Made by a program: the position numbers and the translations under genes. Of a DNA stretch of 64,000 nt, positions 38,848 to 40,798 are shown piece after piece. This stretch comes from Hyphomonadaceae bacterium ML37 (lineage in GTDB: Bacteria; Pseudomonadota; Alphaproteobacteria; Caulobacterales; Maricaulaceae). Within the stretch, counting starts at the first letter, position 1, and every line of letters starts with the position of its first letter. The notes below the pieces were generated by a model that was not told the DNA's origin, made no database searches, and saw only the letters and a list, made by a program, of their open reading frames with translations. The stretch lies in the NCBI GenBank assembly GCA_027627685.1, contig CP091241.1, positions 496,001-560,000 on the forward strand. Direction: 5' to 3'.

Positions 38848-39023
38848 GGCGGCTCCTGGGCAGGCACCGGAGGGGCGCGGAGAGGTGAGGCCTCACCGAT
38901 AGGCGGGAATGGCCGGCGCAATCAAGTGCGCGAGGAAGGTCGCGCCCGGCCCGTAGCGGCGCCCGCGCCTCTTCACACCGCGCCCGGTTTGAGGCATGGA
39001 AAGCGTCCAGTCATCGAACATGC

Positions 39024-39110
39024 GCGGGCGTGGCGGAACTGGTAGACGCAGGGGACTCAAAATCCCCCGGCCGCAAGGCCTTGTCGGTTCGAGTCCGACC
39101 GCCCGTACCA
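39024..39110 (+). tRNA. tRNA-Leu (anticodon CAA)
   Basis: 87 bases including an encoded CCA. Acceptor GCGGGCG (39024-39030) pairs with CGCCCGT (39100-39106, one G-U-type end pair), with a long variable arm (CGGCCGCAAGGCCTTG) as expected for a class II tRNA. The anticodon stem-loop GGGGA-CTCAAAA-TCCCC gives CAA, reading UUG. Its 3' 64 bases are repeated exactly at 40420-40483, marking it as an integration target. Confidence 0.97.
39047..39110 (+). repeat. Left copy of 64-bp direct repeat (attachment site within tRNA-Leu)
   Basis: The segment from the 3' side of the D-stem to the CCA end is identical to 40420-40483; the bases on either side differ (A versus G before, GTAC versus TCCT after). 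A tRNA 3' end duplicated this way is the mark of tyrosine-recombinase integration, in which the incoming element restores the tRNA. Confidence 0.9.
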
Positions 39111-39254
39111 GTACAAAGCCAAATTCGGCCTGCTGCTGAACTGGTTACAAAGCTTGGTGCTCTCTCGCGGTGGCAGCGCCGTTCGATGTCCAGCGGGGGT
39201 TGGGCTTTCAAGCCTGCGTCAAAGCCAGGCCGGATTTGTTTACATGTCGCCATC

Positions 39255-39306
39255 ACGTGTTAAAAGTTACGCATATTTTTAACGTGAGCGCTGCAACGTG
39301 TTAAAA
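39255..39306 (+). promoter_or_regulatory. Triple ACGTGTTAAAA-type motif at the fic promoter
   Basis: Direct copies at 39255-39265 and 39296-39306 are 41 bases apart, about four helical turns. Between them is an inverted variant TTTTAACGT (39277-39285). The right-hand copy contains the GTG start codon (39298-39300). This looks like an operator set, possibly bound by the winged helix of Fic itself. Confidence 0.55.
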
Positions 39307-40407
39307 TCCACCTATACCATTCCGTCCCTGCCGCCGCCCGTCGAGCTGGAGACCGTGCCCGTGCTCAAGGCTCTGGCGGCAGCCAATCGCGCTTTGGCCG
39401 AGCTGAAAGGCCGGGCGGGAAACATCCCCAATCAGGGCATCCTGATCGACACGCTGGTTTTGCAGGAGGCGAAGGCCTCATCCGAGATAGAGAATATCGT
39501 CACGACCCATGACGAGCTGTTTCAGGCCGATCTCTTCCCGGATGGCCCGCTCTCTGCGGCGGCCAAGGAGGTCGCGCTGTATCGCGACGCGCTGAAGCTC
39601 GGCTATGACCGGATGCAGACCGCTGATCGTCTCATCACCAATAACCACCTGATCGAAGTTTTCCGCCTTCTCAAAGGGCGCGATGACGGATTCAGGACCC
39701 TCCCTGGGACCGCCCTGAAGCACGACCGCACCGGCGCAATCGTCTATGTGCCGCCCCAGGACGGGGGCCAGATCGTCGCGCAGATGTCAGCGCTGGAATA
39801 TTTCATCAACGCCGATGACGCTTGCGCGCTTGACCCGCTGATCAAGATGGCGGTGATCCACCATCAGTTTGAGAGCATCCACCCTTTCCCGGACGGCAAC
39901 GGACGGATAGGACGCATACTGAATGTCCTGTACCTCAGCCGCACGGGCCTCCTGGATATCCCGATCCTCTATCTCAGCCGCCACATCACACGGACCAAGA
40001 ACGATTATTACCGCCTGCTGCAGCAGGTCAGAGACGCGCAGGGCGGCGCTGAATCGTGGCAGGCTTGGGTGCTCTACATGCTAGAGGCGGTGGCCAGCAC
40101 GGCCTCCACCACGCTCGGCCTGGTGGAGGCCATCCGCGGGCAGATGGCTGGCATGAAGCATCATATGCGTGAAGACCTGCCCAAGCTCTATTCGCAAGAC
40201 CTGCTGAACAATCTGTTCCGTCACCCCTACACCCGCATCGATTTTGTGATGCAGGATCTGGGCGTCACACGTCAGACCGCCGCCAAATATCTCGACACGC
40301 TGGCGAGCCACGGCTTTGTGCGCAAGCATCAGGCCGGACGGCACAACTACTACATCAATGCCGCCCTGGTCGGGCTGTTCATTGATCCCCCGGAGGGGAA
40401 TGGGTGA
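39298..40407 (+). CDS. fic: Fic family protein AMPylator with N-terminal inhibitory motif and C-terminal winged helix
   Basis: 369 residues, close in layout to SoFic of Shewanella. Domains: Fic N-terminal domain with the inhibitory motif SSEIEN (61-66, pattern S/T-xxx-E-N, class II); Fic core with exact catalytic motif HPFPDGNGRIGR (195-206); and a C-terminal winged helix (about 309-362: DFVMQDLGVTRQTAAKYLDT). It should transfer AMP from ATP to protein hydroxyls and be held off by its own glutamate. Start is GTG inside a repeated motif. It is the only gene of the tRNA-Leu unit. Confidence 0.93.
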   Translation: MLKSTYTIPSLPPPVELETVPVLKALAAANRALAELKGRAGNIPNQGILIDTLVLQEAKASSEIENIVTTHDELFQADLFPDGPLSAAAKEVALYRDALKLGYDRMQTADRLITNNHLIEVFRLLKGRDDGFRTLPGTALKHDRTGAIVYVPPQDGGQIVAQMSALEYFINADDACALDPLIKMAVIHHQFESIHPFPDGNGRIGRILNVLYLSRTGLLDIPILYLSRHITRTKNDYYRLLQQVRDAQGGAESWQAWVLYMLEAVASTASTTLGLVEAIRGQMAGMKHHMREDLPKLYSQDLLNNLFRHPYTRIDFVMQDLGVTRQTAAKYLDTLASHGFVRKHQAGRHNYYINAALVGLFIDPPEGNG

Positions 40408-40419
40408 TGGAAACGAAGG

Positions 40420-40483
40420 CGCAGGGGACTCAAAATCCCCCGGCCGCAAGGCCTTGTCGGTTCGAGTCCGACCGCCCGTACCA
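40420..40483 (+). repeat. Right copy of 64-bp direct repeat (truncated tRNA-Leu)
   Basis: Exact copy of 39047-39110, ending at CCA. It lacks the acceptor 5' strand and most of the D-arm, so it cannot fold into a working tRNA. It starts 12 bases after the fic stop codon and marks the right end of the inserted unit. Confidence 0.9.
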
Positions 40484-40576: not shown

Positions 40577-40798
40577 ATGAAGTTTCTGGCTGATCTGTTC
40601 CGCCCGATCCTGACCATAATCGTTACGGTTCTGGTGGGTGCGTTCCTGGCGTCGGTGTTCTGGCCGCCAGCCAATGTCTGGATTGTCGATCTGATCCCCG
40701 CCTGGGGTCATCTCACGCCCGCGATCGAGCAATGCCGCGAGTGGCTCGGCATTCACCAGCCGGTGGAAGACACGCCCTGGTGGCGCTTCTGGGACTAG
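40577..40798 (+). CDS. Small single-pass membrane protein
   Basis: 73 residues: one membrane helix (about 9-30, ILTIIVTVLVGAFLASVFW), then a short soluble tail ending in a Trp-rich TPWWRFWD. GGAGGGAGA precedes the ATG. No family recognised. It is the first gene right of the tRNA-Leu unit and converges on cydC, with only three bases between stops. Confidence 0.65.
   Translation: MKFLADLFRPILTIIVTVLVGAFLASVFWPPANVWIVDLIPAWGHLTPAIEQCREWLGIHQPVEDTPWWRFWD

Follow-up and report, generated by a model that had tools for sequence, protein, structure and literature searches.

A lone SoFic-type fic gene between copies of the tRNA-Leu(CAA) 3' end, a probable one-gene CIME-like islet

Defence genes turn over quickly, yet many of them have no visible mobility gene. 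Genomic islands that target tRNA genes by a tyrosine integrase duplicate the 3' end of the gene, leave the tRNA intact and have an exact empty counterpart in relatives. Cis-mobilizable elements (CIMEs) are bounded by repeats of their target gene and have neither integration nor transfer genes, and their accretion, with the resulting tandem arrangement, is described in the passages cited (PMC5704250, PMC3146451). As a precedent, 15 Dehalococcoides ssrA islands without an integration module "might be" CIMEs, in the wording of one of these sources (PMC3146451). In integron cassette arrays without an integrase (CALIN), gene cassettes are moved by the integrase of another element, as stated in the part of the source that is cited here (PMC11389934).

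The locus described here lies in a window of 64,000 nucleotides, the whole stretch of DNA that was analysed, and the genome of the window is referred to as G000. It shares the duplicated 3' end, the intact tRNA and the exact empty site with integrase-bearing tRNA islands but has no integrase. With CIMEs it has in common the attL/attR-type repeats at the target gene, the lack of integration and transfer genes and, in two other genomes (G006 and G521), the tandem geometry of CIME accretion. It differs from them in that a single gene is carried in 1.37 kb with no neighbouring island, and in that similar one-gene units, with other SoFic alleles, are found at another tRNA in another phylum. Compared with CALIN, tRNA repeats stand in place of attC sites, and there is no array.

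Table 1. Features of the tRNA-Leu(CAA) locus, in coordinates of the window
Feature	Position	Strand	Basis
tRNA-Leu(CAA), intact, target gene	39024..39110	+	ARAGORN; Rfam tRNA 53 bits
Left 64-bp repeat copy (tRNA 3' part; attL-like)	39047..39110	+	Sequence identity
Right 64-bp repeat copy (tRNA stub; attR-like)	40420..40483	+	Sequence identity
fic leader, 187 bp	39111..39297	+	Between tRNA and fic start
fic, SoFic-type class II Fic protein, 369 aa + stop	39298..40407	+	Pfam, PADLOC, solved chains
Palindromic half-site pair GTGTTA...TAACGT, probable SoFic operator	39257..39285	+	Pattern search
Third half-site GTGTTA overlapping fic start codon	39298..39303	+	Start-region alignment
156 bp identical to G007, possible recent exchange tract	38955..39110	+	Flank comparison

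As listed in Table 1, the left copy of the repeat closes an intact tRNA gene, and the right copy is identical to it at 64 of 64 positions. When one mismatch is allowed, the repeat reaches 67 nt (39044-39110 and 40417-40483, with a spacing of 1373). The 25 bases at the 3' end of the repeat have two occurrences in the window, both exact, and this motif had no occurrence with up to two mismatches in 100 shuffles. Elsewhere in the genome, nothing closer to the tRNA tail was found than a different tRNA-Leu (81%) and a 26-base 5' piece. The repeats enclose the leader, fic as the single credible gene, and 12 bp; the other open reading frames listed (50 aa or longer) extend out of the tRNA, overlap with the leader or with fic in a different frame, or are antisense to fic, and are taken as chance. 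The initial annotation had described a 64-bp duplication with the intact tRNA first, and one gene plus a leader without integrase between the repeats, which is what was found. The unit has a G+C content of 59.4%, against 67.8% for the window, and none of the 1.3-kb segments sampled every 200 bases across the window was lower.

Neither a recombinase or integrase gene nor a transposase is present in the unit, and it is not classed as a transposon or IS. Phage_integrase has five matches in the G000 genome, the nearest about 262 kb away, and an integrase with specificity for tRNA-Leu(CAA) was not found. A paralogue was considered as the source of fic and rejected: the second fic gene of the genome (G000:C1:1200588-1201613) is 33% identical and has one in-frame TAG.

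The fic product matches the Pfam families Fic_N, Fic and SoFic-like_C, as well as solved SoFic chains in a structure search. The PADLOC SoFic profile aligns with residues 8-361 of 369 at 371.8 bits, which is a full-length match. By the usual definitions of the Fic motifs, the inhibitory motif SSEIEN at residue 61 and the catalytic motif HPFPDGNGRIGR at residue 195 are both intact. The protein resembles the SoFic entry PDLC03963, which PADLOC lists as anti-phage: the profile match covers nearly its whole length, and it has the Fic motif, the inhibitory motif at the N terminus and a SoFic-like C-terminal domain. It differs in that only 12 bp lie between the stop codon and the repeat, so that the unit has no AS1-type downstream antitoxin gene, and in its NCBIfam score: the SoFic equivalog gives 364.6 bits, below the cut-off of 550 bits, and the function assigned by homology is for this reason not certain. 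Anti-phage activity is reported for other SoFic proteins in the cited part of PMC12249575, and the G000 gene is probably an anti-phage gene as well. Like those proteins, for which this has been reported, its product would probably act by abortive infection, AMPylating a target once the cell is infected. Outside the genus, the nearest relatives among the matches listed are 69-74% identical; they comprise plasmid records (20 listed of 313) and the SoFic proteins of G164 and G048, at 72% and 70%. To judge from the hosts of these plasmids, G000 is probably an alphaproteobacterium.

An operator-like palindrome is found upstream of the SoFic genes of the window (39257-39303) and of L062, L141, L142 and L169-L174, and in weaker form in L061, L143 and L166. 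The pair of half-sites is present in 10 of 13 SoFic upstream sequences, G000 included, and the three that miss the strict pattern nevertheless look similar. In 8 of the 10 it is placed 41 bases before the start codon. Resampled sequence gave an expected count of 0.06. This figure is optimistic, as the same sequences had been viewed before the pattern was defined and as the surroundings of the gene are similar in three plasmids (L171, L173, L174). In most cases a third half-site lies over the start codon, L062 being without it. One structure entry of the same family, 3eqx, bears the title transcriptional regulator. The leader palindrome is thus best described as a putative, probably autoregulatory SoFic operator. 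Integrase arm sites in the leader were considered and are disfavoured, because GTGTTA/TAACAC recurs upstream of SoFic genes on plasmids and other replicons, mostly at one distance from the start codon. Upstream of the SoFic genes of L068, L132 and L138, sites of the type TATAG...CTATA are seen instead.

For comparison within the genus, 15 genomes were used, including G000. The initial annotation had proposed a search for an empty site in relatives, and had held that fic with both repeats in the same order in all close relatives, with a vertical phylogeny and no empty site anywhere, would refute its reading. This is excluded, since exact empty sites were found in G011, G007 and G002: there, the tRNA 3' end is followed directly by the sequence that comes after the stub in G000, as is characteristic of tRNA genomic islands. 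Insertion at tRNA-Leu(CAA) is established. G011 is also the nearest relative of G000 by flanks; trees group the two with a support of 0.998 (upstream stretch, four genomes) or 0.977 (five genomes). G005 and G014 are likewise without the unit, since in both the tRNA and the cydC side of the locus are separated by about 0.4 kb. About 2.9 kb of different sequence occupies the site in G001, G003 and G013, another arrangement is found in G004, G009 and G010, the contig ends in G012, and G008 has no close tRNA match. Close SoFic relatives (E up to 1e-20) are confined to G000 and G006, the four further fic matches of the genus being 31-35% identical, and G000 has the one intact unit.

In G006, 9.9 kb of sequence lie between the intact tRNA and the end of its contig. 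A second contig opens with 1.1 kb, after which come a stub of the tRNA, the leader of fic, the fic gene itself with about 0.8 kb missing from its interior, a broken right repeat and cydC. The ends of the two contigs (C15 and C14) overlap by exactly 141 bases, and because of these common bases they are taken as neighbours, with a stretch of about 10.8 kb from tRNA to stub. Contig C22, which has an integrase near its end, was tried as the missing part of this stretch and discarded: no shared sequence was found, and C15 and C14 overlap each other instead. One gene of the stretch, of 973 aa, matches Galactosyl_T and occurs in 1 of the 15 genomes (no match at 1e-20 in the other 14); another matches MptE-like. 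The stretch appears to be complete, no integrase was recognised in it, and the five Phage_integrase matches of G006 are all on other contigs. The stretch itself (L059 266-10166 and L047 1-1086) is perhaps a second integrase-less insert at tRNA-Leu. The arrangement in G006 is that of insertions in tandem at a single tRNA, as described for CIME accretion (PMC5704250).

Between G000 and the G006 relic, the fic leader is identical at 158 of 189 aligned positions and differs at 31. The left and right ends of the unit agree in the two genomes, and for this reason the unit is considered to have been single-gene in G006 too. It had been suggested that the same unit, or larger islands with an integrase, might be found in this tRNA in related genomes; the decayed unit of G006 answers to the first part, and no larger ancestor was found.

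This bears on the two origins offered by the initial annotation, an eroded island or a cassette moved in trans, both of which are possible. If erosion took place at the site, an ancestor would have received an integrase-bearing island in this tRNA, of which only fic and the end repeats were kept. CIMEs are held to arise by decay, according to the cited passage of PMC5704250, and a possible decay series can be drawn from SoFic genes in tRNA-associated islands of gammaproteobacteria: L122 has an intact integrase, L073 a truncated piece that can be aligned to it (with no Pfam family match by itself), and in L067 none was seen with a home-made integrase profile built from a few seeds, which may miss some. 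Erosion in place is disfavoured, and we regard it as unlikely, because G006 has the same one-gene ends, which means that the unit was reduced before or at entry, and because the 64-bp stub of G000 is unmutated while the leader differs from that of G006 as given above. The empty site of the nearest relative also argues against it.

The age of the G000 copy was considered in the same comparison. If the insert had been present since the split of G000 and G006, about 5 changes would be expected in the stub by our own estimate, and there are 0. An old vertical insertion, made in the ancestor of G000 and G006, lost in G011 and kept alike in its repeats by gene conversion, would account for the presence of the unit at the same site in both genomes and for a leader divergence (16%) close to that of the flanks (about 15%). 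It requires both a precise loss in G011 and homogenisation of the repeats, and the two G000 copies have a common variable arm, unlike the tRNAs of G006 and G011; we judge it quite improbable. The perfect repeat had been attributed either to recent insertion or to selection on the repeat. Recent insertion is the better supported of the two, since decayed versions of the repeat are seen both in G006 and in two units from the genus to which Rufibacter immobilis belongs (see below).

Next to the repeat, G000 is identical to G007 over the 156 bp that end at the tRNA 3' end, and just upstream the identity is 82-85%; the informative part of this tract is the 69 bp before the tRNA, which is itself conserved. 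From 40517 on, G000 is closer to G011 than to G007 in 7 of 8 windows, the one at 40617 being about equal. These data suggest a recent exchange around the tRNA between the lineages of G000 and G007, in either direction. They also introduce a third origin beside the two named above, homologous recombination with no integrase, in which tRNA-fic-stub DNA of a relative crossed over upstream of the tRNA and within the identity of stub and tRNA. Both the tract and the change of nearest relative downstream are as this would predict. However, G007 itself is empty, the exchange could have run either way, the conserved tRNA and the equal window weaken the comparison, and the founding insertion is left unexplained. 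We treat this origin as a tentative possibility.

A similar unit was found in Rufibacter immobilis (L116, G521), a member of the Bacteroidota. Here a tRNA-Phe gene is followed by a lone SoFic gene in a unit of 1.47 kb with a 60/60 repeat. The tRNA-Phe regions of all 16 genomes of its genus were taken: three have complete lone SoFic units (G521, G541 and G542), G545 has a fragment, and 12 have none in the stretch examined. G541 and G542 have alleles that are 81% alike and 49% identical to that of G521; with two SoFic lineages so distant, at least two lone-SoFic insertions have occurred at the same tRNA-Phe. The stubs of G541 and G542 have decayed to 79-85%. G521 has one more tRNA stub, 20 kb further along; next to it is an integrase-like gene of 416 aa whose arm and core-binding domains are over the Pfam cut-offs and whose Phage_integrase score is 26.9 bits (cut-off 27.1). 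At the tRNA-Phe site of G533 (L200, 1100-3200), repeated copies of the tRNA terminator surround other small genes, which suggests further small inserts.

Lone units of 1.37-1.49 kb are hence present at two different tRNAs and come from three SoFic lineages. Such recurrence would fit an actively mobile one-gene cassette, excised as a circle and inserted by an integrase acting in trans, in the way integron-integrases move arrays that have none of their own. The integrase-like gene at the same site in G521 points in this direction, as do the two SoFic modules, 88% alike, near different tRNAs of one Phenylobacterium genome, and the nine further bases that tRNA and stub of G006 have in common beyond CCA, as if two elements had a common end. 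Against it, no shared subterminal sites were identified, the repeats of the leader being accounted for as operator; no integrase for tRNA-Leu(CAA) was seen, and intact units number one in 15 genomes of the genus. Ongoing mobility of this kind appears rather unlikely to us.

Taken together, we hold with moderate confidence that the G000 unit is a one-gene CIME-like islet and that the present copy came in recently, in a form reduced to a single gene beforehand. A SoFic-type gene with a probable operator of its own was inserted at the 3' end of tRNA-Leu(CAA), with duplication of the tRNA tail. In this proposal, a tyrosine integrase directed to tRNA genes, encoded by a larger element or by a helper, would have performed the founding insertion, and what is left would be a CIME-like remnant that keeps both repeats and no mobility gene. 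The G000 copy would then have come recently, as one gene, in one of two ways: through the integrase of a helper, or through a homologous exchange in which the tRNA stub paired with the tRNA gene of the recipient. The lack of a larger ancestor of this exact unit, and of an integrase for the site, counts against the proposal.

The single-gene form of a defence island and its recurrence seem to be new; no title or abstract start on a lone SoFic unit in a tRNA gene appeared in our literature search, the longest result lists of which were viewed in part. With one gene, exact ends, empty sites and recurrence elsewhere, the insert is a very small natural case for how defence genes move, and the G000 islet lends itself to tests of excision by integrases and of homologous transfer through the tRNA repeat. 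As a speculation that we put forward with some doubt, certain defence genes that have no recombinase might move from one tRNA 3' end to another as cassettes of a single gene. The repeat would then have two roles: integrases borrowed from other elements could use it as an attachment site, and it could act as a homology arm matching the tRNA gene of any recipient. SoFic, self-contained with its own operator, might be such cargo in G000 and in Bacteroidota.

The association of SoFic with tRNA genes was also examined more widely. In the order of G521, 121 places were listed, of which 111 were examined (30 with 1.5-kb flanks, 80 further ones and G521) and 10 left out; 9 of the 111 were dropped for want of a tblastn match at 1e-30. 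A tRNA lies within 3.5 kb in 1 of the resulting 102 loci, which is the index G521 itself, and a general location of SoFic at tRNAs is rejected for this order. Among the best 80 of 166 SoFic loci, fic has 14 tRNAs at a distance of up to 2.5 kb and is on the 3' side of every one of them; at 2.5-6 kb the 3' side prevails by 8 to 3. At up to 1.2 kb the count is 11 tRNAs, where the density at 2.5-6 kb would predict 5.3; near-duplicates (L076/L079; L132/L133/L138) inflate all these counts.

Some individual loci can be added. In L072 (Parachlamydiaceae), a 3.6-kb tRNA-Thr island has a 44/44 repeat and no integrase seen with the home-made profile. SoFic stands directly beside integrases in L097 and L250. 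On L097 (1-5400), a metagenome-assembled contig titled Alistipes, an integrase, SoFic, a small ORF and a MobA/VirD2-like relaxase follow in a row and probably form a mobilizable element. The alike modules of Phenylobacterium (L132 and L138, genome G526) are compared over 1,262 bp of leader and gene; they lie near tRNA-Arg(acg) and tRNA-Ala(ggc), and no bounding repeat was found for either. Finally, on the minus strand of L148 (G027:C24:12000-15999, at about 850-2624), a tRNA-Leu is split in its anticodon region by about 1.7 kb. Within this insert, Rfam recognises the core of a group I intron (RF00028, 55.7 bits), and an ORF of 440 aa resembles a tyrosine integrase (Phage_integrase at 25.1 bits, just under the cut-off); the integrase-like gene is thus located inside the group I intron of a tRNA or next to it.
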